Shown piece by piece: positions 16,044-61,029 of a DNA stretch of 64,000 bases (position 1 is its first letter; every line of letters starts with the position of its first letter). The notes under the pieces were generated by a model. That model was not told where the DNA came from. It saw only the letters and a program-made list of their open reading frames with translations, and did no database searches. The translations under genes were made by a program, and so were the position numbers. The DNA lies in the NCBI RefSeq assembly GCF_964340395.1, contig NC_135557.1, forward strand, positions 18,354,625 to 18,418,624, written 5' to 3'. Source of the stretch: Glandiceps talaboti. Its lineage: Eukaryota > Hemichordata > Enteropneusta > Spengelidae.

Positions 16044-16075
<32 letters not shown>

Positions 16076-16851: not shown

Positions 16852-16929
16852 GACAACAGTTTTTTGATGGTGATTGGTGGATGTTGTAGATCACAAGTGA
16901 GTCTGTAAATCTGTGGATCTGAAAAAAAA

Positions 16930-19115: not shown

Positions 19116-19116
19116 T

Positions 19117-20690: not shown

Positions 20691-20984
20691 CATATGATGT
20701 TTATGAAGAAATGTTGTTTGGAAGTTGCAGTCTTTAAATTTGCATTGTGACACTCGTCCTGTTATTCAAAAATAAAACATGAAATTTAAAGATCGGTCTT
20801 GAAAATATGCATGTGAATGTGTGATCATGTGATACACAATGAGCATGAAATGTAAAGGTCTGTGTGAAAATAAACATGGGAGTGTGTGATTATGTGGCAC
20901 ATGGTGAAATGGGAGATGTGTTTTGAATGGCTAGAAATGGCTATTAGCATCTAAGAACAGTCAGAAAGTAATGGGATCTGTAGC

Positions 20985-21930
20985 TGGTAGCCAGCTATTA
21001 GCTGGCTATTAATGGCTAATAGTGGCTATTAATGGCTAATAGCTTGAATAGCTGAATAGCCATGTGTCGGACAGTGCTGGGGGTTGTTAGCTGGTAGCTG
21101 GCTATTAGCCTGCTATTGATGGCTAATAGCAGCTATTAATGGCTAATAGCTTGAATATCATAATAGCCAGGCCCTGAAGACTGTTGGGGGTTGTTAGCTG
21201 GTAGTCGGCTAGTAATGGCTATTAACTTGAATAGCTGCCTAGGGAGATATTTATGCCATATTCCCACTTTGACAATAGCTGCTAACAAGCTATTACCTGG
21301 CTATTTATGGCCAATATTGAATAGGTGGTGGCTAGCTATTAGCCTGTTATTAATGGCTAATATCGGCTATTAATGGCCAATATTGAATAGGTGGTTGCTA
21401 GCTATTAGCCTGCTATTAATGACTGATATCGGCTATTAATGGCTAATAGCTTGAATAGCTGAATAGCCATGTCCTGAAGAGTGCTGGGGGTTGTTAGTTG
21501 GTAGCCAGCTATCAATGGCTAATAGTGGCTATTAATGGCTAAAAGTGGCTATCAATGGCTCTTACTAGCTTGAGTAGCTACCTACATGTAGGGAGATAAT
21601 CATACCATATTCCCATTATTACAATAGCTGATAGCAAGCTATTACCTGGCTCTTTATGGCCAATATTATTACGCTGAATAGCCAAAAGCCGTTATTTATC
21701 TGAGATCTAGCTATTGTGGCAGTTCAATAAATCCCCAGTGAGCTGCTATTTACCTTGAGATCAAGCTATTTTGGCAACCAAAGAAATAGCCAACAGTCGT
21801 AATTTATCTTGAATCAAGCTATTTTGGAGATGAAGCTATTTTGGCAATCCAATAAATAGCCAATAGCCGCTATTTAGCTCAAATCAAGGTCGAATCAAGA
21901 TATTTTGGTAAATAGCCAATAACGGCTGTT
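20985..21930. repeat. Inverted and degenerate part of the AGCTATTAGCC satellite
   Basis: Units appear in reverse orientation (GGCTATTAATGGCTAATAGC, CTTGAATAGC, GGGGTTGTTAGCTGGTAGC), at least three times between 20,985 and 21,560, followed to about 21,930 by decayed units (GAAGCTATTTTGGCAATCC). Together with the forward array it forms a large, imperfect inverted arrangement around a ~300 bp unique centre. Confidence 0.8.
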
Positions 21931-22099
21931 TATCTGAGATCAAAATTTAAAGATTGGTCTTGAAAATATGCATGTGAATGTGTGATTGAACAAAGAACGT
22001 CTTCCAAGGTCATGCATGTCATGGGTCATGAAACGCATTACCATTATGGAAGCGGTCATTTCCCCGGGTAGAAGCTATTGTGGCAATCCAACAATACCG

Positions 22100-22840
22100 C
22101 ACTTTTTATGTAATGGAGGGTAGCGTATTTTATTTCTTCAGCAAAAGCACTGAAATAGGGTAGCGAAGGTAGCGGTCGGTAGGTAACGGAGGGTACCGAT
22201 TTTTTTCAATCGAAATCATTGAAATGTGATTTTATAAACTGATAACCAAACAAATGCGAAAAAAAATAAACTGAACTTTCATAGACCACTCAACATGTGA
22301 CGCTGTGCGTCATACCCATATCAGCAGTGATGTCACTAACGTATTTACCTGTAACCAATGGCAATAATACATATATTCGCTCTACAACATAATGTTTACA
22401 AATACGAAAATAGCGTTATCAGATAATAAGATGGTATGCATAAGCTGTAAGACTGACAGGTCAAGTCTCGACACAGACATAGCTTTGACCGGTGTTGAAG
22501 ATGTGTCAAGAACTCCAAGCTGTAACTTTTAGTACAGAAATAGTGGAGAGATGGGCTGGGCATGCAAGCATAAGTAAAACACAACGGACGGACTTACGTT
22601 TACATGAAAAGAGAAATACTTACGATGATATAATACAGAGACAAACCGGCTTTACACGATGTAGCTGTAGAGCGGGGCTGGCCTTTACCTCGGCCTCTGG
22701 CTTTTAGGATGTATACAACGCGACTTACACGTAACTGCTGATATAGGCTTTGTACATATACGTACACGAATAAACACTTTCAAGCAGCGTCCATGTTTAC
22801 AGTGAATTATGGGTAATAAAGCTGGGGTCATGGGGATGGT
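22100..22840. repeat. Dispersed repeat block Y, uninterrupted copy
   Basis: Aligns with a copy that is split by two transposons: 22,100-22,372 matches 49,640-49,912, 22,371-22,560 matches 60,838-61,025 and 22,575-22,840 matches 62,145-62,420. It therefore provides the empty site for both insertions. No convincing coding frame. Confidence 0.85.
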
Positions 22841-23440
22841 TATTTGTGCCAAAGCGATGAGGGCGGCCCTATTTATTTTTCAGTTTGTCATCTCCCGACC
22901 GACCCTAATTTGCAGCTCCGACATCAGAAAAAACAAACTATTTTTGATTCCGACCGACCCCTGACACAGCAAGATTGTAAGGTTCGAACGAACGTCAAAC
23001 GTTCCTCATGGCGTCTAAACCACCCCACTCCCACTCCCTTTGTTATGTCGGAGCAGCATGTGTCTTTCATGGCTGAAGTCGTTGAGGTTTGAGGGACAGG
23101 GCTCGAAATTAATGCCGTCGCGTAGTACATTTTGCTGCACTTTAATAGCTCAGAATATTTCTATAATTTTCAAAATTATGTCTAATGTAAAAGGCATATC
23201 GCATTCCTAAAAAACCCAACATTTTTTGACCAGGTTTTAGTTTTAAATCAGTTGTATCATCGGGGAAATGTCGACCGACTCCGTAATGGTAATGCGTTTC
23301 ATGACCCATGACATGCATGGCCTTGGAAGTCGTTCTTTGTTCATTGCTCATGTGCAATAAATGAAATTATCACAGCTTCACGTAGCATAGGCTCACGATG
23401 TTTGTTACAACTTGCAAGCTTCAATTGTGTCATAAACACC
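22840..23440. repeat. Dispersed repeat block X, right part
   Basis: Similar to 49,060-49,615 and 62,995-63,560, including CTATTTATTTTTCTG-like, AGCAAGATTGTAAGG, GTGTCTTTCATGGCTGAAG and CATGTGCAATAAATGAAA motifs. The minus-strand frame MKDTCCSDITKG recurs in all three copies, but poly-C length changes break it, so I do not call it a gene. Confidence 0.75.
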
Positions 23441-31616: not shown

Positions 31617-34600
31617 ATGGGTTACTCTACAGCAAGAACACTTTTCAAAGTCTCGCTTTTGTTACATATAATTCTGGCGTTTATATGTCTTAAATTGCTG
31701 AAAGATAAGGTAAGTTTTTTATATACACAGTTACCCACTCAACTAAACAACACGTTTGTGTTGTTAAAACGCAACTTTCCATACATTAAACTTCGAGTAT
31801 CGAGAAATGATTGTCCAGTTCAGTCCAACAGGTACGAATACATACGTTTTCACGGTGGCTTCAAAGATGTAAGAGGTATGGCCTTCTTTACGAATTAGAC
31901 GGTTTGATACATCAGCTCACCTCTAATGTCAACCTCTCAAATGATCTCTCTAAATTAAAATGATTTTATGCTCCAAATGGTTTTTAATTTATGGCAATTT
32001 CACAATCAATGCTTCATTTCCGCTGCTAGATTGTTATGGCTAGATTTTGACAAATCAGTACTACAATTTTATCGTCCTAGTGTGGATACCACAACACCTG
32101 TTCAGTCCTCCAATTACGTCTATAGTGTTCATAATGAGCGTTTTATAAATACAATCAAAATATATTCCCGCAAACCGGAGCTGTTATTTCTGCCTCTACA
32201 CTTCGAAATAAGTGTGGGGCGGCACGTTAAGAACGGTGCCGTAAAACAGGCCGTAGTTTCCGCGTGCGACTATGTCAAAATACAGTTCTTTTAATATCTA
32301 GATTTAATGATTTTTTCATAAATTTTAAATATATACATTTCAGCATAAGGTATTTCTTCAATATCAGCTTCGTTTACTAGATGCTATTTTTTAACATAAA
32401 ATTGTGTGACTGATGCTATTTTTTAACATAAAATTGTGTGACTGATACCCAAAATCTATTTCTTTTAAGACAATGCACATAAAAGAGCTCTATGCTATTG
32501 ATGCCAACTGTCACTGCCCCTGTCAAAAGATTGGCAAGGAAGAGGAACATAATGTTGAAACCAGTAAGGGTAAACAGCAAGCGATTTCCAGCGTAAACAT
32601 CGAACACGATATGTCGTATTATAGCACCTACACTCGCTTTTCTCTCGGATGGCTTGGAAAGGTTCACGAGTTGGAGTGGGCTTATGACCACAGTACGATG
32701 CCTGCATCAGTAAATGAACCACATCGTCCTCTTAACATAAGTACAGGAGTAACAGAACAAGAACATCGGAATACGACTACTATATTAAACAGAAACACGT
32801 ATCATCCCTTAGCTATCAGTAATGGTAAAATGGGAATGACTTCTATTCAAACAACAAGGTACGTACGAATTGAAACGGATAAGTGATTGAGTAGGACACG
32901 AAACAAATGTTCGGGTAAAGTTCAAGGTAATGGGCGAATTGTGTTCAAATCAAGTGCATTGCCAATTGCGGCAGGAGTATATATTATTGCCTTGATATTG
33001 GGTTATATGTCATAGGTGCAAGGGTAAGATTAGCACGACGTGTAGCGGAGTGCTAATCGAATCCTTGCACCGAGAGCTTTGTCCCTTGGTATTATTTAGA
33101 AGTGTAAATAAGGGGTGTTTTTCGTATTGTTCAGATATCGAGGAAAGCAGCAGTAGTCTATGATTAATCGAGTAAACTATATGATGTATACCCCAAGGTA
33201 CACAAAAACAGGAAGTAGAGCGCCATCTTGGCAAATTTTCGAAAAGCCTTTTGATAAGTATGTTTGTTGAATTTGCTACATATGGTAGGTGCAAACCCTT
33301 TTAATCTACAAAGTTATCTTTCTCTGATCACTGTATTTTTTTTATACATTTTTTCTCTCTCAGGGTATATTTTTTTGAAGGCAAGACTGAGTTCAAGACA
33401 GGAGACTATATACACATTGTCATCGAAGCAGTTGACAACAATGGCCGCAAACGACATCGAGGAGGGGACTTTTTTGAGCCTGTAATGTATAATCAAAAAC
33501 TTGAAAAGAGTACTGCTGGACGAGTTGTTGATTATGGTAATGGTACATACAGTGTATACTTCTACGCTGCCTGGCAAGGCACTGCAGATTTTAATATTAA
33601 CTTAGCTTTTACTCGAGAAGCCATCTTGTTCCTGAACCATGATATTTTATACTCTGAACCACAAGGTGTTTGGCAGGCAACATTCAGCAATGGTAACATC
33701 TCTGAAATAAAGAACTGTTCAATATTAAGTGAAGGTACCTGGGATGACATTTGTGAATATACCAATTCTGCATCATTAGGACAAACTGTATTTGGTTGTG
33801 AAAGACCCGAGTACCTTGCCTGTGACGATTTTGTCAATTTGTATCACACAATCAAAAATATAGAAAAGGTAACGACACTTCGGATCCAAAATTCGATAAA
33901 ACTATTTCAAAGGTAAGGATCATAGATTACCCATATGCTTTGAATCACTTGGTTCTGGTATCTTAAAATACACAAATCCCTATAGTTCACATTGTCGTCA
34001 TTTGGAATTCAGACTTGTGTGCTGTTGACTGATCACCATTTTTGAATTGATGATACCTAAACTATAGACTCTCAAATACGACTGCCATTCAGCGCAAAAG
34101 GGATATGAGTTGCAAAAGTAAAGCATGTGTGTATGTTATGTTGTTTGTATTATGTGTGCCCATGATCTTATAAGCATGGGTCCGATTTCATAAAATGTAA
34201 CTAAGGTAGGCATTTTGGAGGTAAAACCGGAAGACAACTTTGCTTTGGTAATTCGATCGATGTTGATATATCCAAGGAAAAATAAGTTCGAAGCGAAACA
34301 TTGAGAAAGTAATCCCTAATTTTTGGAGTAAATTGTGATTGAAAAAATCAATACACTTGCCATATTGAATTCTTAGACAATTTCATTTGCAGTCCGACAG
34401 ACAGACAGTCAACCAGCCAGCAAGTCAGCCAGCCAACCAGGCAGACAGACAGGCTGGTGCATTTATATAAGTGGACATCAGTCATATCAGCTTCCTCTGA
34501 GGGAAAAATATAACTTTATCTGTCGCAAATTACGAATTTGGCATTTTATTATTAATAATCGACGCCCAGCCATGTCGCATTTCTAACGTATATATTTATG

Positions 34601-36397
34601 TGGTATATTGTGTGCTAGAATTCTTATCAAGGAGTAAAATGTACGGTGTTGCTGATAATTTGTTTTCATTTTAGTGGGATATATAACGGCCAATTAAAAC
34701 AAGCGACAATGAAAGCACTAATAAATGGTGAGTAGCTTATTTAATGTCATCGTATGTTTCAATTACATTAATTTGTGTTTGAACACAGAGTATTTGTAAA
34801 TGGATCAGGGTATTTAATTATTGATCATTTCTTAAAGACATTAGTACTGTAAGTCCCCAATTACACTAGTACTGGCCGCTATGTAGTGGCTAGTTAACAT
34901 AAAATACGCAGTTATTAATACGATTATTTAAACCACCCACTTTGAACTATTAAAAAGATTTTGTGGGTTCATCCTTTTTTCAAGGAAATCAAGAATATGA
35001 AATTCTGTTATTGGCATTGTATTGGATTAATTTATCATTTTGAAATAATGTAATTTGAAAAGTTTCACAGTTACCCCTACTTCATGTTTTTTTCTTGATT
35101 TGAACGGTTATAAATGGGATCACTATCTCAGGAAATACAGACAGTTTTATAAACTGTGGGTTCAGGAGAGTGATGTCATGATTTTAGCATCACCTACATT
35201 ACTTGCGGTCTCAGAGAAACATCAGTTTGAAGTATACCCCCATTTTGGAAATAGTTTCTATTGACCACAATGCTTCGTTGGGATCACCAAAGGAATTAAT
35301 CTATTTTATGGATGACACCCTCTTGATTTTTTTTTCACGTGGGATTTCTGATCTCACAAAAGTGCAAATTTTATTCTAAAAGATAATTAGGGAATAACTA
35401 TACTTGGGCATAGTAAAAAAGAAGTGTATTTTTGTCTTGTTAAAAAAAAGGCATTTCTCAAAAGCGTCGATAATCTGTTTCGATAGTTTGTTGTTACTTA
35501 ATCTTCTCTGATCGCTTCCCATAGTGCATAGCGAATGATGGTGTAATGAAATCGTACTTTTAACATAGCTTTATAAGGGCCACGTACCGAAAATATTTTG
35601 TTTCCCCAGCTAATATTTGCATCATGAGGCCCCGTTTTCACTAAACCCTTCATTTTGCAGGTCAAATGATTCAACCAAAACTACCACAGTGTGGACCTGA
35701 TATACCTGTACCACTATCAGATGGATACTGGGCCGATAATCTGACCTTTATTCTAATGACCTGTCGTAGTCAACAATGGAGTGACGAAGAGGTCAACACT
35801 TGTCTATCAAATAAAAAGATATACATATCAGGGGGTTCAACAATGCGACATGTTAGAGACACTTTTCTTTCTTACTTCCACTCGTCTACTCAATTAGATA
35901 TCCATTATCATTTTGTTGCTTTAAGACTAGGCCCTACTTATCAGAATATTACCGAATTATACTTCGAAAGTGATTTTGTAGACGCCATACATCACGGAGT
36001 GTGCAGCCAGAGAACCGCAGTATTCATCGTGAACTTCAGCTTTCATTTCGTAACCTGGACGACAAGTGCATATATAGAGAGACTCTTCCATGTGAAATTA
36101 GCCATTGTCAGATTTCTTAATCGTTGTCCAGGTTCAATGGTACTCATTCGGTTATCCAATCCACGAGAGAATAATTCGACCAAACAGCGGGTTCACAGTA
36201 GTGACTGGATCCTGTATGATCAAAACAGAATGATACGACGAGTCTTTGGTGGTATTGGAGTTAGGTTTATTGATGTATGGGATATGGTATTGTCTCATCA
36301 TGAACCTAATGTAGTTCATATGCCAATGTATATTATCAAGCAGCAAGTAGAAATGATGTTATCATACATATGTCCAGAGATGGTGAAAGATAAATAA
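31617..36397 (+). CDS. NXPE family (neurexophilin and PC-esterase domain) protein
   Basis: Five exons, 31617-31709, 32470-32858, 33364-33912, 34675-34727 and 35661-36397, join with consistent phases (0, 2, 2, 1) and GT-AG sites to 606 residues, close to vertebrate NXPE proteins (about 550). Exon 1 encodes an N-terminal signal-anchor (residues 9-25). Exon 2 is a low-complexity stem with a CHCPC cluster. Exon 3 holds the neurexophilin-like beta-sandwich (KTGDYIHIVIEAVD, GGDFFEPV, VVDYGNGTYSVYF). Exon 5 is the PC-esterase domain: PQCG.., GYWADN, a GGST nucleophile region (Ser421) and Asp566/His581 in FIDVWD...VVH. The family is extracellular or luminal; its substrate is unclear even in vertebrates. 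The usual GDST box reads GGST here, which may affect catalysis. I chose the downstream donor of exon 3 (33912) because only it keeps the frame into exon 4. An additional exon between exons 1 and 2 cannot be excluded. Confidence 0.87.
32381..32444. repeat. Tandem 33 bp duplication next to the NXPE exon 2 acceptor
   Basis: GATGCTATTTTTTAACATAA followed by AATTGTGTGACT occurs twice in tandem, ending about 25 bases before the acceptor of exon 2. Confidence 0.85.
33015..33071. repeat. 57 bp hairpin in NXPE intron 2
   Basis: GGTGCAAGG and GATTAGCAC on the left pair with GTGCTAATC and CCTTGCACC on the right, separated by short mismatches and an 15-base loop. This is probably the end or remnant of a small foldback element. 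Confidence 0.6.
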
Positions 36398-41044: not shown

Positions 41045-42748
41045 TTAATTGTTCTCGCATTTAAATCTAGAATATCCTTGCAATGTTACTTTTGTCTTGT
41101 CACGAGAGCCTTCTATATTGCGTGTGTTCATTTTTAGAATTAAATTTCTTTCAGTTGTAAATGGATGAGTGTTAAATAAATTCCATCCACAGAAAAAACA
41201 ACAGTCTTCGTAATAATAGCAGTATCTGTCTTTGTCATTTGATGGGATATAACCATATACATCGACCTCGTCACAGATATGCAGTAATAGATGAATACCT
41301 GGTGGAAAGACGGTTTTAAAATGCATTATTCAATTTATACTTTTTTTTGTTTAAAATACAATGTGCCTCTTTAAGGTGTCATATTACACACACACTGTCA
41401 TAGCAAGAACATGATGAAAACATAATGAATACATGTAAACTTCTAAAAGCTTATTTAGCGATACATTCTGTTAAAAAATACCAACAATAAAGTTCTAGTC
41501 TTGAAAATCATGACATTCCAACATTAATACTCATTACTAAGTTTTTATTGTATTACTTTTCATATGGTTCAAACATGAAAATACACACACACACACACAT
41601 ACATACATACACACATACATACATACATACATCAAATCAGAATTGACAACATTAATGTCGCTGTTGACATAATGTGTCATGTTATACACTTTGTCTCTCA
41701 CCTAAAAATCCAGATGTTGATGGAAAGTTATCCAGTTCTTCTACATTAAATTCTTGGATAACATCCCATAGTTTCCAAAGGGATTCCAGACGTATCAAAT
41801 ACAATGGTGACTCAGGATGCTTGTAGTGCCATCTAGCATAACCGCAAAAGAAGTTTTGACCATCTTTGTACCACTAGGGTAAAGATAGGAAAGGGAAGAT
41901 AAAAAAAAAACCCCAGAACATTCGAAAACGTCACTCCTTCATATAATATACAACGAATAACACTTAATTAAAGCACTTTCTCTATATGTTACACTCCTTC
42001 ATAACATTCATATCAATGTAGTAGTTTACTGTTTCAATTGGTTTATTTACAAGCCTAGTATGTGCCCTTTCTAATGTGGTCAATTTGCAAATGAAAAAGT
42101 ATACTTTTACACTTGATGTAAATGCTATAAACAATTGTGGTACAGACAGAAAACGTGGTACTTTGGTATTATGCGTTAGATATAAAAACAGCATATCCGA
42201 ATACAAGATAGACAAACACAGGGCATATCAATGACAAGAAATAACAGGTAAAAGAGTGAAAAGTGGGGATAGAAATATTGAAAAGAGACTTGTAGTGGGC
42301 ATGTATTATTTTTTTTATTCATAATACCATAAACTAAAAAGTCATTACGAATGACATAGTCCCTACTATGATTGGGTTTTAAGGAACTGGCAGTTTATGT
42401 TGTCATTTTCTTGATATCACTACTCTGATCATGCAACAACATTTGTGAAACTAAATCAAACAGACTTAGGTATGTTGTGTCTGCTCATTGGACATGGAAC
42501 ATGCCTACTAATGTTGTGTCTCCTCGTTGGACATGGGGCATGCCTACTCTTCAAGATGACGTAGCCTCCCCCCCCCCACTCCCAGGGGACCTGTTCAAGC
42601 ATTTCTGAGTTATGGCTTTGGACAGGGAAAATTCGCAAACAAAATGGCTGCTAGGCAGCCATATTGGATTGTATCATGAAACAAATTGAGGTGCATATGG
42701 ATGTCATAGTATGTTGCCCCATACCAAGTTTGAAAAAAGGCTTTGATC

Positions 42749-42782
<34 letters not shown>

Positions 42783-42886
42783 AGTGACTATGAAAGTGAA
42801 GTCAGTGAGGAAAACCCTACCCTCTCCTTGATAAAGAAGCTTTCAGAAGAAAAGAGGTCACTTGAAAACAATGCAGTTGAAAAGGT

Positions 42887-42933
<47 letters not shown>

Positions 42934-45900
42934 CTCTCTCATTGATATGCAAATAACATAATTACATTTTATCCTTTTACAGAAAAGAAGCTGAAAATAT
43001 TAAGTCTAGCCTGCCTGCCAAAAGAAGCTGGATTTGTTGTTCATAATATTGACAAAACCCTTAACAAAATCAATGCCTGTCGTTATACCACAGCAGGTCT
43101 TTTATCGGCTATCACGTCGACAAATGCTCCAAGGTGTCTAATAGTACTCATCATCTTCACTTTCTACTAATAGTTTTTGTTTGGAATTTATAGATGTTTG
43201 TAAATTCATACTAATGTTGATGTTGTTGTTGTTGTTGTTGCTGTTGGTGTTTTTGTTATTGTTAAAAGCGACAGTGTGGTATGCTGTTCCTACACAATGT
43301 CATGCATCATGGTTCATGTATTTCTGTTTTATTGTGTATTTTTCATTGTTTTATTTTGCACTTTTTAGGTAAATAGTAACATTCAACTTGTCAGCCGAGT
43401 AGTAACTATTTCCATTTACACTCATTATATTAATGTTGTTTTCTTATGTTGCTATAGACTGAAAATATCAAGCTTATTGTAGACAGTATAGTACACTGTA
43501 CTAAAGCTGTGTGTGAAGATATGGAAAGTGATGCTGAGAGAATTAGAGAGAAGTACCTGCCTTTATTCAATCTGTTTGGGGCATGTCACAGGGTATACTC
43601 AGTTAGTAGGAGACTGACAGACGAGGAAATAATGTTGGGTTCTTATATAGCGCTTTCCCACTCTGTGCTCAAAGCGCTTTACAATTATTACCCCTGGCTC
43701 GGATCAGAACAGCACAACGGCCCTTTAGTCTTCCTCAACTCCCCGGGGAGCATACAATCCATTGCAGCCATTTAAGCGCATAGGATTAAAGCCTTCACAT
43801 TGCAACCTACATCCTACCAGGTCCCCAGTTATACAGCTGGGTTGACTGAGGCACAGTCGTGGTTCAAATCTTGCCCAAGGACTTTAGCCACTCAGAAACA
43901 AACAGCAGGCAGCGACGGGGCTCGAACCTGCAACCTGTAGGTTCCAAGCCGGTCACGCTAACCATTCACCCATCATGACTCAAAAAAAAACAACACTTGG
44001 TGATTATTCACAGCAATACTATGACTAATCTGTTTTGTTTTGTTTTGTTTCTGAGTTGTTACAGCATTATTTATTCTGGAGTTACTTTTCAAATTTGTTG
44101 GTTACTAGAAATATTTGTTTACTTAATTTTACATGTTTATCTTGTTTGTTTTAATTGTTCCATTCTTTTCCAGTTAAACTAAACAAGTTGTTGTCATTGA
44201 AATACATGAAGTAAGTAAACTGACCTTTGTTCATACATTAACTATTTTGTTTTGTTGGTTGCTAGAAAACACACAGATACTAATCATTGGACACATTATT
44301 TAGCATGATATTGGAGTTTGAGTTTTTACATTGCTAATAACAATAAGTTACATGTAGTTTCAACACTCCAAACATACATTTTATGTTACATGTAGCTCAC
44401 AGGTTTTTTTTTTTTGTGTGTGTGTGTGTGTTTTCTTAACAGGTATAAACATAGTTGGTCTGTTGGAGTACTATAGAGAAAATTTCCCAACACAAACTGT
44501 GTTTCCAAAACTCCACATACTGGAAAGTCATGTCATGAACCAGATCAAAGTAACCAGAATGGGGTTGGGTTTTTTTTGGGGGGGAAAGTGGGTTGGAAGT
44601 GATACATCACACCATAAATGTCTGTCAATGAAATTTTTTACCTCAATTCCAAATGTTCTGAAAAAGTACAAATGTGTCCTGGAGGAGCATCATATAAAAA
44701 ACTCATCCAAAAAATGTTGCAGCAGTCAAACGAAATAAATCCTGTAAATAAATGTAGATTGGGCACTTTGCTACAAGTCTGTCTGTCTCGTAAAAGATCA
44801 TGGTAGTTGTAAAAATGTATAAATATTTGTAAATTATGTACACCACAATATACTTGATTGTAATTTGTAATAAAGCAAATAATTTAAAACAAATATCAAG
44901 GTCTTTTTTGGATTTGTGGGAGTCTCAATTATCAATGTGGAATGTTTGTATCCAGTTTTTGTGTAACACAGTATATGAATGTCAGCATCACTGTTAATAA
45001 TTTTCACCAAATAAGCCATGAAATAAAGGGTCCTGTCCCAAAAACTTGATAATTAAGTGAATCAGTTCTAAATTTAGAATAGTTGATCTATTGTATTCAA
45101 GTGAGTGCATACACTTTGAATAAAACTAGTGTTCAACGCAATTTGGTCGACGAAAAAAAAAATGCCTGTTAATCTATATATAATCACCCTTTGCCCCCCT
45201 ACAGCCATAATGGATTAGTCCTAAATGTACTTTTAGTATTTTACCAAGTTTAGAGTTTTACATATGACAAAACTTTAAGAAAAACAATGCTGTATGTGTG
45301 AGAAAATTAAACATTGTAGGGCGCCCCTGTAGCGGCAGGTTAGTGCACTACATTCTTTTGTTGTTGTTGTTTTCCTCCCGCCTAATTTCTCTCATAGAAC
45401 TACTGTGTTGTAGCTGTATACATGATATGGTACAATAAATTAAATGAAATAGATTGTTGGCTCAGCACCCAGTAATCAGCGCCCTCAACGGCAGTCATGA
45501 TTTCAACATGTTACTACACTCTATTTACAGATAAGATGGACCACTGATTGATATGTACAATGTCTAGGTGTCAGTATAACTATATCCAGTTGACATATTG
45601 TGGTTGTCTGGTCTAAAATGACACAACTGTTGCAAGCCAGTGCATGCAGTTTTAAAATATCGACAGAATCAAAACCAAGCTTTTCCTCTCAATTTCAACT
45701 TGTCACTCAACCACCTACAGATAATGTTGACCCCCAGTCAACAGATACGGTGTCGTTTTATTAGCACTATACAAATTTTCTGGGAATTTATATTCAGTTA
45801 CTTGATGAAAGAATGTCCCAGTTGCAGCTAGTGCAGGCTTAATTACAAATGTTTCTTGAGTATTACATTGGTTCAAAAAGCAAGTCAGTAGTTACATGTA

Positions 45901-47187
45901 CACATTTGTATGTCATTTAATTGGTAGATAATAAAATCACTACATGTTTTTTTCATAATACCTTATACATGTTCCCGTTATAAGGTCCCTCTCTCCACGT
46001 CAATATCATCTCAGAACCTTTTAATTCCTCCAGCATCTTAAATCTGTAAGATCTTATCACTTTGCTATTAGTTATACGTATGGTTGTCTTACTGCCAACA
46101 TCGTTCTCGAAACCTTTAATTGGTGCTACATTGAAACGAAGGACTGCGTCATGAGAATCTATCAAAAAAACAGTAGAAATGCTAGTTGTCATGGTGACTC
46201 ATGCAAAGGATAATTGTGTATTACGTCATCACTTTAGCTCTTTCAACTAGTATTATTACAGCCTAAAGCATCTTGCCCCCACATCTGAATACACACACAC
46301 ACACACAGATATATAATATATATATATATACATATACACACACACACACACACACACATGTATATGGAGATAGATAGATGGCTAGATGGGTGGATGGCTA
46401 AATGATGGATGGATGGATGGATGGATATATTGATGTATTTACGACGGACGGACGGACCAACAGACAGGCAGGCAGGCAGGCAGACAGGTAGGCAGATAGG
46501 CAGGCAGGCAGATAGGCATGCAGGCATGCGGGCAGGCAGACAGACAGACATATACCTACCTATCTCTCGTCCAAAATGCGAATCACGTAAAGCCCCTGAA
46601 CTCGTTACTACAGCACATGTTTTATATAGCGTGGCTGTTCTTTTTGAAATATATGATTCCTTTGGAATGTACTTTCCATATCTAAGTTCATGGAACGGAG
46701 ATTCGTCTGGTTGTACAAATTGAATTGGTGCAGATTGTTTCAGTCTACATGCTACTTCATTTAAAGATGCGTTTACTTTTCCTCTAAGACGTTTCTTAAA
46801 TTTTGGCGGCTTTTCCTCAAGTGGGTTGAACATTGAATTATGATCAATAAGGGCCTTTTCCAACCATGGTGTCTCTTTGGGTAGGAAGCTAAGACGGTCA
46901 CCCAAGGTAATTTTTCCAACGGACTTTTCTTCAGTAGGGTACTGGTCACGTTTGAGTTCTTCATAGTCAGCCAATGACAGTCGGATGCCGTCAGCTTTGT
47001 CACGCGACGGAAACAAAAGTACGGTAGAATCGCTGAACTCTTCAACATCAGCTTCACATCGATGAGTATGTGCAAAATATGGAATTGTGGGAAGATCAAT
47101 AAAATAAGCTATAAGGAAATAACCCGCAGCTAGGAAAATTAGGATGATAAATTTTTGGAGGCAAGCTTGTTTTCGTGTTTTTGTCAT
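41045..47187 (-). CDS. ST6Gal-type beta-galactoside alpha-2,6-sialyltransferase (paralogue B)
   Basis: Coding exons 47187-46560, 46158-45962, 41873-41702 and 41298-41045 have the same phases and sites as paralogue A and give 416 residues. It differs from A by a two-residue deletion after the anchor and scattered substitutions. The L motif ([13 protein letters not shown]...[10 protein letters not shown]), S motif ([16 protein letters not shown]), CYYYE and the VS His/Glu (HPFTTE) are intact, so it should be active. Unlike A there is no stop just upstream and an ATG at 47277 would add 30 residues, but MTKTRKQ at 47187 is preferred by homology. The upstream exon starts at 47254. Intron 2 is about 4.1 kb against 1.5 kb in A because it has taken in a transposon relative, including a SINE. 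Confidence 0.9.
42889..42942. repeat. (CT)n microsatellite
   Basis: CT dinucleotides directly after the donor of the acidic exon of the degenerate transposon gene, with one CGCT interruption. Confidence 0.93.
43634..43981 (-). mobile_element. tRNA-derived SINE interrupting the transposase-like exon
   Basis: On the minus strand the 5' end carries RNA polymerase III promoter boxes: A box TGGTTAGCGTG (about 43,953-43,964) and B box GGTTCGAGCCC (43918-43928), spaced as in a tRNA. The 3' end has the tail GTAAAGCGCTTTGAGCAC and GGGAAAGCGCTATATAAGA that is common in invertebrate SINEs. It cuts the frame right after RRLTDEEI. The body has no tRNA cloverleaf beyond the head. A target-site duplication is not clear. 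Confidence 0.75.
45100..45400. other. Remainder of the insertion in sialyltransferase B intron 2
   Basis: Similarity to the intron of paralogue A stops near 42,336 and resumes near 45,405. The stretch after the degenerate transposon gene contains no recognisable coding sequence or terminal repeat. Confidence 0.4.
46290..46552. repeat. CA, TA, GGAT and GGCA simple repeats in intron 1 of sialyltransferase B
   Basis: CA at 46,291-46,308 and 46,336-46,358, TA at 46,311-46,330, GGAT at 46,404-46,428 and a GGCA/GACA array at 46,463-46,550 that runs up to the exon 1 donor. The long read-through frame past the exon is simply the repeat. Confidence 0.88.
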
Positions 47188-47399
47188 GACAACTGTCTTT
47201 TGATGGTGATTGGTGGATGTTGCAGATCTCGAGCGAGTCTGTAAATCTGTGGATCTGAAAAATAGCGCCAATGGCATTGTAGCACAACTGTATAGTTGTT
47301 AAAAATGTTTAACCGATATGCTGATCCATACTAGGTATAGATGTTCATTTGCTGAATGATTATCCATACATTCATTTGTCTACTTATCCCTGTTATCTT

Positions 47400-49616: not shown

Positions 49617-49912
49617 TTCCAGTGAAGGCAATGAAATGTGGTAGCGGTAGGTAGCGAATTTTATTTCTTCAGCAAAAGCAAGTTGAAATAGGGTAGCGAA
49701 GGTAGTGGTCGGTGGGTAACAGAGCATGGAGGGTAGCGATTTTTTTCAAGCAAAATCACTGAAATGGTGATTTTATAAACTGATAACCAAACAAATGCGA
49801 AACAAATAAACTGCACTTTCATAGACCACTCAACATGTGACACTGTGCGTCATACCCATATCAGCAGTGATGTCACTAACGTATTTACTTGCAACAAATG
49901 GCAATAATACAT
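49617..49912. repeat. Dispersed repeat block Y, copy 2, left piece
   Basis: Matches 22,100-22,372, ending at GCAATAATACAT where the large transposon begins. The continuation is at 60,838 and, after a second insertion, at 62,139. Confidence 0.85.
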
Positions 49913-50195
49913 TACCTCTGGATTTATACGCTACTGGGTTTTGACACGTCTTCTCCCACTCCGCTATGGTTCTTCCCTATTTTAAACAGCGAGACTGCAC
50001 TTTTCACAGATTTTGAGAATAAAAACCACCCATTCCTTTGCTGATGACAATAAAAAGTACAGAAAACTTTAGATCTTTAAATGCAAGCTACGTCTTGTCT
50101 ATTCTGTCATGTCTTGTCTAACGTTCGCTAGCCTCGTAATTAAATATGGTCGACTTGCGCATGCGCAAAACTTCTACTTCGCCTGAGGTCACCTG
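49913..50195 (+). repeat. Left terminal inverted repeat of the large transposon
   Basis: GATTTATACGCTACTGGGTT starting at 49921 matches the reverse complement of the right end, with the outermost bases TTACCTCTG against TTAGCTTTA. Similarity continues, with small indels, to CTTCTACTTCGCCTGA at about 50,187. It includes TTGCGCATGCGCAA (50155-50168), which fits the NRF-1 type palindrome. Confidence 0.9.
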
Positions 50196-50199
50196 AACA

Positions 50200-50516
50200 C
50201 TGAAGTAATTGCAGGGGAACCTTCCTAAAGTCAACATCTGTAAATAGTATTATTCAAAGGAAAACCCATATAAGTTCCCCATGGAAAACACCAACAATAC
50301 AAAAAAAGGAAAGTTGGTACACCATGCAAAAAGAAAAACACTTAATTTGAATGAAATAATTCATATGAAAATGATGTAATAACTTCAAAGTGTTGTCTTT
50401 TTGGGGAAAACATTCCAAATGTCATTATCATGAAAATATCAGAAGAGTATATTTAAAAAAAGAATTTCATTCATGAAATATGTGAGATGATGCTTGACAG
50501 TAATTATTGTATTCAG

Positions 50517-50554
<38 letters not shown>

Positions 50555-51900
50555 CTACAGCTCAGACCAACTGTTCACTAAGATATCAGGAAGACCATAT
50601 GATGATTTTCCAACATTTATACACATTAATGGAATAAAGAAGCCATCGCAACTCAGAAAAAGACTTTCACAGTACTCTGTATAACTTGACAGGTCCAGAC
50701 AAATTTTGCCAAATCCTCAGCAATAATACATCATGTAGCCACAATCATTTATATGTACTTACTTTGATGTAACCTTGAGCAGATGTATCCCAATCTGCCA
50801 GGTTTGATAATAAAGTTCTGAACACACACACACACACACACACAGCAAAATGGGGAGTTGTTTATATATAATATTTATATATCATATAATATATATTTAT
50901 ATATAATATCATGAACCACACTGTTCTGACCCAAATATTTTGAAGAGACTGAGTGATATGCAAATTAGGTGAACAAATGTAAATTTTGGTCAAAAACTCA
51001 TATCAATACATGGAGTTTCTTGCACTGCCATGAAACAACATCGCGTAAGAGGACAACAATTTATCAGCTTGCAGCACTGACTCCATAAGTATGCTTGTAC
51101 CTTTATGTCTGCATGTTACAGAAACCACAGTTGTATCATTAGTGTAGTTTTTGTACTAAAAACTCTTTTGTGATGCCAGAGTCAGTAATTACTGGCTGTA
51201 TAAAGGTAAAGAAGATCCTCTTTAAACATGGCGTGTATAAATGTTGGAAAATCATCAAATATAATTGAGCTGAAAACTGACTGCTGATATTTATCAGGGG
51301 GGGGGGGGGGGACGACGATACCTATCACGTGATATGGTTTGACCCCGAGAACAATAGAGTGTGACCCCACTGCACTACATTCTCTACAAGCGAGTATTTC
51401 TCGTTTTTCAATGAATTTTTCAAGATATATTCCACATTTGTTGTAAAGCTATAAAGCATCATCCCGAACTGCTTAAATAATATCAAAAACGTCCAGTTCT
51501 GAAATTATTTACGTTCGAATGCAGGAGACAGGTCAGCTAGACTACTTAGTCAGAGCTTTCGACGAATGCTATTTTCCGATGGTTTTTTTCACAGAAGAAC
51601 ACCATGTATTCAATGAAAAAAATCAACATTTATACATTTTGATTCATGATAATTTACGTTATATGTTGCTAGTAAAGTAACATGCTCACTACTACCATGA
51701 TGATGTAATGTGATAAAGACTTCTTTGCATTTTCACATCATGTACCGGTTTCATTGAATAAATAATGTGACAGAAAATCAAATGATTTCTGACAAACAAA
51801 ATTGTACAAACAGCTATGCCTTGTTCATACAGACATATACTTACAAAAAACAACGTCACACATATGTCAAGGAAGGGAGATGAAAGACACCTAAAATAGG
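50200..51900. other. Interior 3' region of the large transposon, non-coding
   Basis: Between the left inverted repeat and the stop codon of the element gene. Holds a TA repeat (50,518-50,551), a CA repeat (50,823-50,843), a poly-G run (51,297-51,311) and the sequence TATAAATGTTGGAAAATCATC in both orientations (about 50,600 and 51,240). No coding sequence recognised. Confidence 0.5.
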
Positions 51901-52797
51901 TAATTAGTTATGATTTTATTTTTTGAAAAATACTATACAGGTGGTCCTTGTACAGACACTCTATTTTGTCATTTTCTTTTCCACTCATACTTGCATAGGT
52001 TCTCAGAGATTCGTTTATTTTATGATGAATTGCCTCAACACCATTCTCTCCCAAAAACCCAAGACCAACTCCATATTTCTGTATCTGAGGCAGTACATGT
52101 TCTTCCAGCATGTGAAGCTTGGGTGTAATGGCTACGTGAGGAAAATGAACTCGGAGATATATGAAAAGCCCTCTGATATTAGTACCTGTACAGGAAAAAA
52201 AAACAGAACACAGTGCATGAAATACGATTGCACAAGTATTGAATTAGGAAGGAGTACATGCACTTAGTTTTCCATGTTTGAAAGAGGTATCAAACTTGTA
52301 TCCAACAAATATGTGTATGACACTGTACTTGTGTGTAAACAAGAAAACATTATCAGTATAATGCAGAACTATTTTTTGAATTTGTGTCCATCATGCAACA
52401 TCTGTAAAGGATATCTAGTTCTGATTACTTTTAGTCTTTGAACATTGGAGACCGAGATGTGTACGTGGAGAATAGTATGTTACACTTACGCAAGGATTCT
52501 ATTTCATCATCAGTCAATTGCCTGCACAGGTTATAGATATTATGACACTTGGAAAAAAACATGAAGAGTGGCTGGTATTTGTCATACAAATACTCGGCAT
52601 CCTCTAAAAACTCTGGACACACATCTGCTACCACAGTGACTGGAGTTGAACAGATCTTCTCAACATTTTCAGTCTACGCAAAGAGAAAAGACAATACAAA
52701 TATCAACTACTTGACATATTGAAATGCTACTGTGCGTGTTAACTATACACCAAACATCAAATTTTATGACTTAACCTAGCTGATGTATTATGTTTCA

Positions 52798-53885
52798 GGG
52801 GTCGAAATAATGGCCTTTTACTTGCCCCTGGCAAGTGATTTCAAGGCTTGGGCAAGTTGTTTTGAAAAGTACTTGTCCCAAGGGGCAAGGAGAATTTCTT
52901 TGATCAGGGATATGTTTTTGCCTGTGTTCATGCTGTACTTATCAGACACTGCACATGTATGATAGGATTTTGGATACATTGTATAACCATGGTGCCAACA
53001 AGTCTGGAAAATTATAACATTGTAGCAATATTGAGAGTCCCAAGGGGCAAGGAGAATTTCTTTGATCAGGGATATGTTTTTGCCTGTGTTCATGCTATAC
53101 TTATCAGACACTGCACATGTATGATAGGATTTTGGATACATTGTATAACCATGGGGCCAACAAGTCTGGAAAATTATAACATTGTAGCAATATTCTGATC
53201 ACTTTTCAAAACAATCTGGGCCAGCTGTCCTTGACGTACTTTGTTTACTCTATCAAGAAAACATACCTGGAATGACCAGTGACTCATTGAATATTGTTCA
53301 TCAATAGTAAATTACAGCATGATTTTTCAGGTTTTGGGTGTTTGAATCAACTGCAAATTTTACAACAGTCATTTTATTTGAAAATACTAAGGGTGCTAGG
53401 AAAATATAAACAAATCATACTGGGAGAAAAATAGTTGGTGTGGATATGGAAGGAAAGAAAATATATTGACATCGTGGAAAAGGAAATACTTAAAAAGATT
53501 TTACATCAGTGTTGACATAAATGTTAATCTTTATATTGATAGCTTATGAAAGTGCTGAAAACATTATTTTAACAACTACTTTTTACAAGTGAACAAAAAA
53601 TTGTATGCTATGCTATAGTAAGAATATTAATTAGGCCATGACAATTAATATTATTTAGGACACCTGTTTATTGTGGAGAGAATTTTTCAGTACCTACAGA
53701 AACTTTCAAAGTGACATTTTCTGATAATAAACAAAAGAAAGCCCAATCAATCACAACAGTGCATTTGTAAGCCACACAAAAATACCCCACTATTTGGAAT
53801 GGGCAAGCACTTTTTGATTTGGGCAAGTACTTTTTGTTTTCTACTTGCCCAGTGGACAAGCGAAATTGTTCATTATTTCGACCCC
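52798..53885. mobile_element. Nested non-autonomous element in an intron of the transposon gene
   Basis: Starts GGGGTCGAAATAATG and ends CATTATTTCGACCCC. Behind these 15 bp inverted ends both sides carry repeated CTTGCCC / GGGCAAGTACTTTT words. The body has no coding frame and contains a 162 bp tandem duplication. No clear target-site duplication was found. It lies between the exons ending at 55292 and starting at 52673, so splicing could remove it. Confidence 0.75.
52877..53197. repeat. 162 bp tandem duplication
   Basis: CCCAAGGGGCAAGGAGAATT starts at 52877 and again at 53039. The two units differ at only a few bases, so the duplication is recent. Confidence 0.93.
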
Positions 53886-56800
53886 CGTGTGTACAATCTG
53901 CAAAGAAGGAAATGTGGTGAAGAACATCAAATGTGACAAATTTGGATACATTTATCACATTAAATAGAACAAATATGTAATAGAGAAAACAGAACAATTT
54001 AAGGTGGTTACATGATGTACAAAACAGTACTGACATTTCATTTCCAACAACAGTTGCTGGATCAACTTAACATACACTGACTAGTATATTTGTAGTGGTC
54101 ATATACTATGGTTGCACAGGTAAGTCTTATTTTGACTTTTGTCATGAAAAAAAATATGAATATGGAACAATAAACAGTAGTACAATTTAGTAATACCATG
54201 GGAACTTACATCTAAACTTATTGTAGTACCACAGTACACATATTAAGGTAAAAGCCATGAAAAATATCAGCTCCCGACAGGACTCAACCACAGACAACTC
54301 ATTTGAGACATGAAATCATGCTCATAAAGTGTAAAGGAATATTTTGAGACTATCCTGATAGAGACAGAGTGTACTTGGTAGGCACTTGTAATTTACTCAT
54401 GAGTATGTTGGTACCTCATATGAGAAATCTTGGTTTGAGTCCTGCAGAGAACAATGTTGTAGCTATTATAAAGTCAACATGTACATTTGTATTTGACAAA
54501 TGTCTCTTTCTATGATTCTGGAATGTCCAATGTACATACAATAGATAACCTGCTTTCCACTTCCTCCACAACCTATTAATAATGGGTAAGTCTACTCTAC
54601 GTTGTGACTATCAATAACAATTGTGGCATGCATCTGTCATAAAAAAACAACACTATCATAGCCACTGATCAAACTATTGGGTTGTTCACAGACATTCCAA
54701 GTTAGAACATGCAAGATGAAGCTAACAAGAACATTTGTAATTGTATACTGAACAGCATGCATGCAAGAATAATTAATGCTGACAAACCTTACAACACTTA
54801 TCTACGTGATTACCAACAAATGAACACCCATGGTAGGCCTGTCTGTGTACTTTGATACTGGCCAAGGTCTTATCTAGAGCTCTAAAACAATACCCTACTT
54901 CACTAGGTAATGTTCTCTCTAAGCTTCTGGCTTCAGTTTCCAAGAAATATCAATCAGATCATGGCTATAGAGTTGCACTCACTAAAAGGGAAAAATTACT
55001 AAACAAAGTAGCAATATACTACATTTACACTAAAAGGATAAAAGCTGACCCTGATAGTAAGATTGTAAACTTTTTTTCCTGAATATTTAATCAATGTGAA
55101 TCACAAAATCACGATAAAACTACGATAGGTTTACTTTGATAGGTTTATCACCCAGTTTGAAAACAGAACACTTTTTAAAAGACATGCAAAAGTTCACTTG
55201 TTTCCTATAGTGTTTGTACTTTAGCAGAGCTGTGTGGGCATTGATCATTTCATTTACAATTTTTTTTTTGTTTTATATTAAAAATAATTACCTTCTCCTC
55301 AGCACTACATAGTAACTCTTCTCTTTCCTCTTGTAGTCGGTTAACTTCCCGTAACGGCACATCTTCTCTGTCATCTTCATCAAGATGTTGAAAGGCAATT
55401 AGTTCAGTTTCTATACATTCTGCCTGATCCCCCAGTTCCTCAGACTCAGAAGTCAACTTGGGTACCTGCATTTATACACAGTAATGAAAAGACTTGTTCT
55501 AATAATCAATATTTCTTTTGCTGATATTTCATTAGAACTGTCTGACTACAATACACAATACTGTCAACTACATGTAAGACAATGATGTGAATCAGTCTAC
55601 TGTCTAAGCCAATCTGATACAAAAGTGCATGTCAGACAATTGCTTGTGATAAACCAGATTTTAGGTTCCCTATCCTTACAATGTGGTCGCTCATAACTAA
55701 ACACAGCTTTATCATATTTGCCATACAACAAATATGTGAACTTTACTACATGCCTCATTCACGAAATGGTGTGAATTCCATTGCTGATCATGTGAAGCCC
55801 AGGCTGGAACAATGATATGTGGTCAGTATAAGTTATAACCTCAGCATAACCTCATGACCATATATACGTGTGTGCTCCATTCTGAACCGTACAATGACAT
55901 TACAAATGTAGTGTTGCATTGTTGAAATTTAGAGTTCAAAAAAAAAGAAAAAGATTTTTCTTTGAAACAACACAAAGTGAGCGTAGTTTGCAAAAAGTGT
56001 CTTGATTTGTAAAGTGTGAAAAGAAACATGTAACAAAAATATCACAGACCAAACTTAGGATTATGTGCCCTAGGGGTAGGATATACTCATTGTTCCACTG
56101 CATGTTAGGGGAATAGAAAATGTATTCTTGTAAGTTGTAGGTAGTTTCTGACAAATCTATAAAAGATACTCATAAACAAACTGACAATACCTGTTCTATA
56201 CCTTGAATTTAAATATTAAAATTTGCTGGGAGGATAACAGGTTCATCTACTTCCCCAGTCTTGCTTAGTTTCAGGAAGATCTTCTTGTCTAATTCCACAC
56301 ACTCAGTCTCGTGCATCTTAAAAAACATAAGATACACACCAAGACTAATGTGAAGACCAGGCACTGCTACCTGTGAAATAGAAGAACATGCAACAATGTA
56401 ATCAGCTGAGTGACCCCAAATCACTGCTATCATTACTTTTCATGTGTACTATTAATAACAAAGACTGTGATAACAAAATGAGTGGATTGATACAGTGACA
56501 AGGGAATTTGAAAAACAGTGTGTGTATTCCATGTTTGATATGAATCACAGTATATGTTGCTATCACTGCAATCTATTGTAAAGTTTGGGGGAAAAATCAG
56601 ATATTAGAATCCCACAATGATGAGAATACAGACAACATTGCACCCAAGCACAATCAAACAGACTGCCTATGTGCAATATTTTATTTACATTTCACCATGA
56701 GAAGGCTGTGTAATGTAATATTGTTGAGTGCAACTATGCCTTACAACAATGTTCAACCAACTGTATCTCTTAGCCTGTCTCAAATTGTTCTACAACTACC

Positions 56801-58486
56801 TACTATATAGCAGCAAGTTTATCTATTGATCACAGTGTAATCTTTCACTTCCTGATGTTTAATTAGTATACATTTCACCAGTGGTGAGTTAAGTACAGTT
56901 TTCAGGATAGGGACACTGTAGAATATCAATCTGGTATAAACAAAGTTAAAATGTTGTATTGTTTTCTAGTTGCCAATTCAATATCAAATGTTGGAGTTGT
57001 TTGTTTACCATCCGAGTGAAGTGAGCGAGTGTTTGTGTGTCATATTATCTGTGTAGTGACTAACCAGCCTTGGTCTTATAAACAATTTGAGAAACTTGCT
57101 GTTAGTAGGTAGTTTCAGCACAGCTTGAGACAGGCTAAAAAATATAGTTGGTTGAACATTGTTGTAGATTATGTATGAAATACATAATGCTCCGATACAA
57201 TGCCTCATGGGAAAAAAGCAGTATGAAATAAACATTATGAGATTCAGTACATTGTCTTAAAATTTTAGTTGCAGTACAGCATAAATTGATAGTATACTCA
57301 CTCTTTCTACTGGGATACCTATGAGAGGTGTGTGAATACAGTTGTGGAACAGTTTGGCCTTCCTCAATATTCCACCATCCTCCTTAAAGTTCTCATGGTC
57401 TGTCATGATGGAGTCTAATGTCCTGGCATCAACCGATGGTCTATCTTCAGGAACCAGAGAACAAATGTCTTTGGTTGTTAGGCACCAGAGACAGAAGTAC
57501 TTTCCTTTGGAACATGATCAAAGAGAAAGATGAATAGAAATTGGACCAAAATATTAAACAAAGTAGTATCTTTCATGTACCTCAGTTTGAAGTACAATGA
57601 ACAACTTCTCAGAAACTCACCAACATGAGAGAACATTGATTCACATAAAGGATGACTGTATACATGTGACAAGATTTCTGTAATCATTCATAGTGTACTC
57701 CTTACCACTTATAGGACTTACCACTGGGTCCGCTTAGTCCATATAGTTTGGTTAGATATTCGTAGTCTCCCATTACAAACATTGAAATCTCTACAGTAGC
57801 AAATGACAATAAAGTATATGTTAGCTAATGATGAATAGAAAGTAGACATATTAAAAACTAAAATGTAAGCGGTGTATACCACAGGGAAGAGGAATTGAAT
57901 AGAGTCAACTAATGTGCAAATGGTGATCATGAAACAGGTAGTAGGTTAATTGTGTTTTATCATTATTGATGTAGCACTTGCTTCCAGGTACAATCATCAG
58001 TGTAGGACAGGTAGGTAAATTGTGTTCTTCCATTGTTTGTATAGCACCTACAGTTTTACATAAAAGCATCATTGTAAAACAAGGATGTAAACTATCTAGA
58101 CCTATTGATGTATTGACCATTCACACAAGGGTCCATAGTTTAATGAAATGTCATATCACCCACTACTGATGGATCACTTACCTCCATGTAGAACCTTCCA
58201 GATTTTTTATTTCAACCGTGAGTGCCTTCGTTGCAGTTTCAAGATTATAATAGCTGTCAATGCCTTTATACATGTTGATAATAATGGTGTTGTTGATAGA
58301 ATTTGGATGGTCCACATTACAAACTTCCAAACACGTCTTCATAAAATCTCCCACTTTGTCCCCACCAACCTTGACCCACGCCTCTTCTTGTGGTATTACT
58401 CCATGCCAGTTCAATTTCTTACATCTAAATTGAGAGAATTTGACCAGATAAATTGAACATGAAATACATTCATCAAATATTGTGTG

Positions 58487-58580
58487 TGTGTGTGTGTGCG
58501 CGTACATATATACATATGTGTGTACACACCTATGTGTGTACACATGTTTGTGTGTGTGCGTGTGTGTGTGTGTGTGTGTT
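58487..58580. repeat. (GT)n-rich microsatellite in the transposon gene
   Basis: Two GT tracts (58,479-58,500 and 58,548-58,579) around a CACACCTATGTGTGTACACA segment, in the intron between the exons ending at 58648 and starting at 58424. Confidence 0.85.
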
Positions 58581-60544
58581 TGATAACTACAAGACATATG
58601 TGTTAATGTAACTTGTAAGGGAATTATATGATCACAGTTGGTATTACCTGTCTAGGTCCTGCAGGTATCTTACACAAATATTCTCCAAGTTGGTGCTAAT
58701 GCTTGGTGTTAGTCTGTACTCAGTACCTAGTTTGCCAGTCACTGGATTTTTCACATGAAATTGAAGGAACAGGCTCTTGGCTGACACTTTAATTTCTCCA
58801 GGTAAACTCTTTGCTTCCTCCCTATCCATGCCCTCACCAGGAAATTTTATTTTCCATTTTATCAACCACCTATCAATAGTAAACACAAAAATTGCAATGC
58901 AAATGCAATCATGTACACAATATAAACATATAAATAGTGATCATCACATCAAATTTTGGTAATGACGTGTGTACACTGTATGGATCAGCAGAACTATATG
59001 AGACAAACTCTCATCACCTGATTTGCCCTCTTTAATTTTGAAAAAACCCTGGTTGATGTAAATGTATCTAAAACCAAAAACATACCTTCGCAATTTTCTC
59101 AACTTGTTCCACGGAATTGACAGGTCTGCTTTGACCATGAGTCCAGTACAGGAGGGATTTGTGGTGTGGCCTGTACTGTCTTCAGAATGTTGTTAGCTCT
59201 CCTCAATTCAGTCTGCAGTTGTATTTCGTTTGATAGTTCGTCCTCCCCACTCAACACCCTTCGATGAGATTCTATGTATTGTGCTCGGTTTCGTTTTGTT
59301 GTGGAGGAGGCAGTAATACACTATGTCATAGGGCAAGGCGTATATGTCATATGGAATGGCTGGTTACTAAAAAATAAAAAACAGAAATAATCACATACAA
59401 TGTAGTTTGATATGTTGACATTTGATGTTTGAGAAAATCACAGTGACACTGTAATGCAAATAAATTGATAATGTACAAACAGGTGTTACAATAGCATGAA
59501 CTGCTACATTAATGTTAAATTTATGAAGTTTATCTGTCTATGATACCAAAAAAATACTTACTCCTCCTTTCGTTTTAAATCGCACAGGTGTTCCTTTCCT
59601 GCTGTCATCTGTCAGGTCAAGCTTTCTCTTCACACACTTTGTTGTGAGATCTTCAAAGCCAGGGGTTTGTTCAAGATTAGGTGTGGAAAGCAGTATTTCA
59701 ACTGCTTTTTTGGGGGACGTTTCTCTCCTTAAAATTGGGGTAGGTGAGATCTGTGGTGGTTGTTCTTCTGGTTGCAGTGGTTGGCGGGCATAGTCATGTT
59801 CTACACTAACTGGAATTGATGCAGATTGAACATGACAGTGTTCAACATGGTCCTGAAGCTCACTCAGTTGCACAACAGCTCTACAACCTTTCCATGCCAA
59901 GTCACATGATACTTTCAGTTCACAAAGTAAGTTCATTAAATGTATTGGTATGGGCAAGACAGTTGTTACTGTGATACTCTCTGCAAATTGGACATGTTGG
60001 AGAGCTGTGTACCCACTTGGTAATGCATGGTGCACAGAAGATGTGATGACCCTCACACATGAGCTGCACAGGTTCATCACACACTTCCTTACATATAAGG
60101 CAGTCTAAATTCGAAGTACTTGTGGAAAATCTCTCCACATACAGAGGAACTTGGGTTTTCAATGACTTCGCAGCCTTCAGTGTTATTTCTCCAACTAGAC
60201 TTTCTGATGAATTTTTATCTGTACCAGTAGTTGCTTTCTGAAACTTCTGATGTATACTACTTTCACTAGAACTGGTACAAGGTGCAGATGGCAACTTTAG
60301 TTTACTGGGCTTCCTCCCCCTCTTACTGTACCTGCGACATACACTGCAATCACCTGTTCTCGGATGTTTGCACCACTCTACATGTTCTAACTTCGAACAA
60401 CACGACTTTCCAGCCAAAGTTGACGCTTTCAAACGTCCTATTGTGTAAAATTATGTTGAATATTAGGAAAATAGTTTTTAATGATAAAGCGAGCCATAAA
60501 GAACATACCATTGATAAGAAATATCGAGTCATGACTTGGAGTCA

Positions 60545-60837
60545 AGTGACTTCAGGCGAAGTAGAAGTTGTGCGTATGCGCAAGTCGACCATGTTACGAC
60601 CCGAGCAAACGTTAGACAAGAAATGACAGAATAGACAAGACGTAGGTTGCATTTAGTGATCTAAAATTGTTTTCTGTACTTTTTATTGTCATCAGCAAAG
60701 GTATTGGTGGTTTTTATTCTCAAAATCCGTGCGCATGAAATCTGTGTGCAGTCTCGCCGTTTGAAATAGGGAAGATCGAACCATAGCGGAGTGGGAGAAG
60801 ACGTGTCAAAACCCAGTAGCGTATAAATCTAAAGCTA
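60545..60837 (-). repeat. Right terminal inverted repeat of the large transposon
   Basis: Reverse complement of the left repeat at about 85% identity with short indels (for example an extra CATGCGCACGG segment). It ends ...CCAGTAGCGTATAAATC at 60,829. The element gene starts within about 150 bases of its inner edge, so this repeat is likely to contain the promoter. It carries a TGCGTATGCGCA variant of the palindrome at about 60,571. Confidence 0.9.
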
Positions 60838-61029
60838 ATAATATATTCGCTCTACAACATAATGTTTACGAATACGAAAATAGCATTATCTGATAATAAG
60901 ATGGTATGCATAAGTTGTAAGACTGACAGGTCAAGTCTCGACATAGACGTAGCTTTGACCGGTGTTGAAGATGTGTCAAGAACACCAAGCTGTACTTTTA
61001 GTACAGAAATAGTGGAGAGATGATTTTGA
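60838..61029. repeat. Dispersed repeat block Y, copy 2, middle piece
   Basis: ATTCGCTCTACAACATAATG to GTACAGAAATAGTGGAGAGA at high identity to 22,371-22,560, then interrupted by a second element. Confidence 0.88.

Follow-up and report, generated by a model that had tools for sequence, protein, structure and literature searches.

RAG1 is the enzyme that rearranges vertebrate antibody genes. The accessible text of two papers gives two accounts of its N-terminal region: in one, a Transib was joined with a second transposon (PMC8355894), whereas in the other the N-terminus was inherited by common ancestry and the RING was lost in Transibs (PMC4411706). The same source (Kapitonov and Koonin 2015, PMC4411706) reports two Chapaev subgroups in which a RING lies behind a Chapa domain. 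This domain takes its name from Chapaev transposons of lancelet and sea anemone, hosts that are given there for the Chapaev group and not for these two subgroups. In our literature search, which had subscription papers and Repbase outside its reach, the term Chapa domain was found in PMC4411706 only, and nothing linking Chapaev with hemichordates was found. Here we analyse a stretch of 64,000 nucleotides (the window, to which all positions refer) from contig NC_135557.1 of the hemichordate Glandiceps talaboti, in which an element of ~10.9 kb encloses a single recognised gene joining a zinc/RING front to a transposase body. Its inverted termini are long, a paralogous site without it is present, and its one gene, rich in introns, codes for a transposase with a zinc/RING front. 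From this we conclude, with a probability of about 0.88, that it is a once autonomous and now decayed DNA transposon of the cut-and-paste type, belonging to the Chapaev (DUF1280) branch within the CACTA/Mirage/Chapaev/Transib group.

With the Chapa and RING type of Chapaev, as far as the accessible text of PMC4411706 describes it, this element shares the family to which its transposase body belongs and, as far as its RING and last zinc motif show, the union of a RAG1-type zinc domain with a RING behind it, but it is hosted by a hemichordate, its gene comprises at least 11 exons and misses the first zinc motifs, and its ends are without CAC..GTG. Because the combination of Chapa and RING in two subgroups is already published there, the kind of element is known; the present copy adds whole-element anatomy, i.e., long termini, an intron-rich gene and an insertion site. 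With RAG1 and RAG1-like (ProtoRAG) proteins it shares the domain order, from zinc front and RING to an RNase H-like core with CxxC and HxxxxH, and the core fold predicted for its relatives is RAG1-core-like. It differs from them in that the body is ~15% identical in structural alignments. No RAG2-like gene was seen, kelch or PHD matches being found in 0 of the 21 plus-strand open reading frames (ORFs) of at least 60 amino acids inside the element, a scan that extended neither to exons below this length nor to ORFs on the minus strand beyond the gene. N-RAG-TP of Aplysia is likened to the element by description: there, too, a RAG1 N-terminus-like sequence lies within a transposon (PMC8355894, accessible text). 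The nearest uncharacterised proteins, which belong to the same gene family, are P0001 of Glandiceps talaboti and P0022, P0011, P0002 and P0019 of Ptychodera flava, so that the deuterostome host supposed in an earlier note on this DNA is borne out. P0001 matches at 59% identity over 85% of the joined query, and P0011 (1089 amino acids) carries every body motif as well as the zinc motifs, whereas the element's copy is broken.

The gene consists of 11 exon pieces on the minus strand, from 60,437 to 51,908, matched by P0001 and Ptychodera flava proteins; AG precedes 10 of the 11 and GT follows nine of the 10 non-last exons, in agreement with the multi-exon gene described earlier. The element, its termini, the empty site and the exons in order of transcription are as follows.

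49913..60840, minus strand: whole element, with its gene on this strand (ends placed by comparison with the paralogous empty site; right end known to within ~3 bases)
49911..50196, plus strand: terminal inverted repeat past the gene's 3' end (alignment with 60542..60839)
60542..60839, minus strand: terminal inverted repeat beside the gene's 5' end (alignment with 49911..50196)
22119..22553, plus strand: paralogous site without the element (flank alignments)
59562..60437, minus strand: exon, W-x2-HP-x4-C-x2-C zinc motif, RING finger, second zinc finger and linker, one frame break (RING E 1.4e-7; 49% to P0022 residues 70-226; 77% to P0001 residues 1-44; splice edges)
59086..59366, minus strand: exon, linker to body, in-frame stop and frame break (relatives' matches, splice edges)
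58648..58869, minus strand: exon, transposase body start (48.7% to P0001 residues 275-350; splice edges)
58182..58424, minus strand: exon, DUF1280 core with first catalytic Asp, VGGD (PF06918 E 3.3e-12; 67% to P0001; splice edges)
57722..57790, minus strand: exon, second catalytic Asp, GDYEYL (83% to P0001 residues 435-458; splice edges)
57302..57504, minus strand: exon, CxxC zinc half-site, CLWC (73% to P0001; splice edges)
56212..56370, minus strand: exon, PGLHISLG block, in-frame stop near the 3' end, donor not identified (75% to P0001)
55292..55465, minus strand: exon, coiled-coil-like stretch (78% to P0001; splice edges)
54788..54944, minus strand: exon, VHRQAYHG..GNHV block, acceptor not identified (63% to P0002 residues 880-928)
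52490..52673, minus strand: exon, body part (73% to P0001; splice edges)
51908..52185, minus strand: last exon, HxxxxH zinc half-site and catalytic Glu, GENGVE (73% to P0001 residues 700-776; acceptor)

The body matches DUF1280 (PF06918) above the cut-off, a domain equated with the Chapaev transposase in the accessible part of PMC3985635, and this is the outcome of the Chapaev profile comparison that had been proposed. Following the definition of the catalytic and zinc motifs in PMC12730594 (accessible part), all five body motifs can be read in the element's exons in the order VGGD, GDYEYL, CLWC, HMLEEH and GENGVE, downstream of W-x2-HP-x4-C-x2-C, RING, second zinc finger and linker. Among 23 relatives, the D-x18-CxxC pattern is present in 19 and HxxxxH..E in 14, the others being without the pattern or the region. 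The union of a RAG1-type zinc/RING front and a transposase body in one gene, as claimed in the earlier note, is upheld, while its description of the body as separate from RAG1 is not, given that the body is a DUF1280/Chapaev transposase whose relatives are predicted to fold like the RAG1 core.

The front of the element's own gene shows a generic RING and extra zinc motifs; of the complete front of the Chapa and RING type, as preserved in Ptychodera relatives, it has only the RING and the last Chapa zinc motif, the first two zinc motifs being seen in P0002, P0011, P0019 and P0022. Since it resembles P0022, its link to RAG1 runs through one homology step, and the RAG1-type CxxC/RING/zinc-finger unit noted earlier holds for the RING and last zinc motif, with RAG1 likeness via relatives; the first two motifs were not found. 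Among those relatives, P0002 matched full-length RAG1 154-381 at 2.5e-10. A profile built from eight of the 23 relatives, picked for their RING-type front (P0011, P0002, P0014, P0019, P0022, P0001, P0021 and P0023), matched RAG1 95-378 at 4.1e-32, the best non-RAG1 chain being RNF4 at 3.5e-17 over the RING, among the best 60 of 162 chains. The Pfam domain RAG1_imp_bd lies above the cut-off in three of the 18 relatives scanned (P0002, P0011 and P0019), and P0022 falls slightly short of it; P0014 lacks a match to this domain, yet its front aligns with those of these four proteins.

A tree of 20 rows was made from the element's body and 19 of the 23 relatives. In it the element pairs with Glandiceps P0001 (100/100), within a five-row hemichordate-type clade (100/99) in which every row has a RING or RAG1-like front. 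P0014 has a similar front, yet falls outside this clade on a long branch. Front-less relatives may in part be truncated gene predictions.

The inverted termini, 49911-50196 and 60542-60839, are 85% identical across 303 aligned columns and reach a local score of 205, whereas 200 single-base shuffles gave no score above 18, as expected from the repeats of ~285 bp reported around the gene. The element's DNA had no match elsewhere in the window at E up to 1e-3 with the low-complexity filter on. The left flank (49650-49912) matches 22119-22372 at 90.5% and the right flank (60836-61022) matches 22365-22553 at 95.2%, which substantiates the uninterrupted site proposed near 22,360-22,400; because the flanks are uninterrupted there, the element boundary falls at the repeat ends. 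In the best fits to this site the element runs from 49913 to 60840-60842 and the duplication is 2 (AT), 1 or 0 bp long, at 97.4-97.5% likeness, so that a target duplication consistent with the paralog is at most 2 bp. The termini read TACC or CATTACC at the left and TATTAGC at the right. If the ends were instead read symmetrically, as CATTA and TATTA, the paralog would be a scar left by excision, with a 3-bp ATA duplication. Excision seems unlikely as the origin of this site, compared with a site that was never occupied: GGCAATAATA from the left flank, one C and ATATATTCGC from the right flank give exactly the paralog, as a footprint of CATTA/TATTA ends would, but plain insertion of the element, spanning 49913-60840 and duplicating 2 bp (AT), fits equally well (97.4% over 38 bases).

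Compared with P0001, the gene has two frame breaks (front and linker) and two in-frame stops (linker and PGLHISLG exon), and these, together with the first-zinc-motif exon that was not found, mark a broken copy. The description of the element as full-length therefore stands for its termini and not for its coding region. Because the encoded protein is broken, the element would be mobile at most through an intact relative. As family knowledge suggests, its transposase would have dimerised and bound the long termini, and an RNase H-like DDE site, braced by the CxxC..HxxxxH zinc site, would have cut the element out and inserted it elsewhere; by analogy with RAG1, the RING front may have served as a ubiquitin ligase or dimerisation module.

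Several results weigh against reading the element as a Chapaev transposon with a RAG1-like front. The fold evidence comes from the relatives' proteins and not from the element's own, and by sequence only the body profile was weak, matching amphioxus RAG1L at E 0.001 and second to a coiled-coil match. For the element's own front, RAG1_imp_bd was not listed even at E 10, RAG1 was not among the best 60 of 107 matching chains (only generic RINGs), and no exon for the first two zinc motifs was found upstream of the first recognised exon by matching against relatives, where the gap to the adjoining repeat is only ~100 bp. Chapaev hallmarks are CAC..GTG ends and a 3-4 bp target duplication (PMC4079192), and the wider group has mostly CA..TG ends and 2-5 bp duplications (PMC12730594), according to the accessible parts of these sources. 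CAC..GTG ends were not found in this one decayed copy, under either the simple-insertion or the symmetric reading, and an exact duplication of 3-8 bp was absent from the 25 best empty-site fits, for which all pairs were tried and only exact duplications scored. We therefore class the element by its transposase as a divergent Chapaev-type (DUF1280) element and hold full membership open because of the missing CAC..GTG mark.

The termini without published Chapaev end marks, the single copy seen with such termini, and a related gene fragment at 43015-44723 that lacks them would also suit a passenger gene, an older broken host or transposon-derived gene lying by chance between the inverted repeats of another, non-autonomous element. 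This is improbable, as the gene occupies the element almost from repeat to repeat, with exons (51,908-60,437) that begin ~100 bp from one (60,542) and stop ~1.7 kb short of the other (50,196), and as its body is of the transposase type that would mobilise such an element. A Chapaev transposon carrying its own gene remains our preferred reading, and it might share its lineage with molluscan N-RAG-TP, in which case N-RAG-TP too would be Chapaev. The chance of this comes near to even: the RAG1 N-terminal-like sequence described in N-RAG-TP (PMC8355894, accessible text) and the occurrence of DUF1280 proteins in the sea slug Elysia point to it, but the two Elysia proteins returned (P0015, and P0018 as judged by its listing) have no RING or RAG1 domain.

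The common-ancestry account of RAG1 predicts elements with a body distantly homologous to the RAG1 core and a RAG1-like front, in the same order, and the hemichordate relatives fit this prediction, P0011 holding both halves. As a single protein unites the two halves, each of them RAG1-like and their order unchanged, we tentatively favour this account over fusion, with somewhat less than even confidence that hemichordate Chapaev keep the whole RAG1 architecture (zinc front, RING, second zinc finger, nonamer-binding-like helices, and complete RNase H core with zinc site) and that the RAG1 front came from a common transposon ancestor rather than from a fusion of Transib and N-RAG-TP.

The flanks of the element are part of a large duplication (10914-23438 versus 38633-63561) with several insertion differences between the copies, and the element is present in one of the two. 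A further difference holds the degraded relative mentioned above.

42335..45419, plus strand: stretch without counterpart in the other duplicate (14423-14916), holding a degraded related transposase piece at 43015-44723 (DNA and protein comparison)

Here ~3 kb replaces ~0.5 kb of the other duplicate. The DUF1280-type piece (plus strand) is related to the element's gene and was detected at the protein level, its exon at 43461-43634 sharing 46.6% identity with Ptychodera P0011 and 42.9% with Glandiceps P0001; no inverted termini were found around 42335-45419.

Each duplicate also contains a piece of a sialyltransferase-like gene (16027-16890 and 46243-47298; Glyco_transf_29, below the cut-off), and a repeat array with ~108-bp spacing, in both orientations, occupies 19914-21667. 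Exons of a host gene of the NXPE family lie at 33305-36397 on the plus strand (Neurexophilin E 2.8e-15, NXPE C-terminal E 1.3e-39). Introns of the element contain a 158-bp tandem pair with units 99% alike (52875-53194) and an inverted repeat with 103-bp arms, 74% complementary (56703-57205), perhaps a small nested element.
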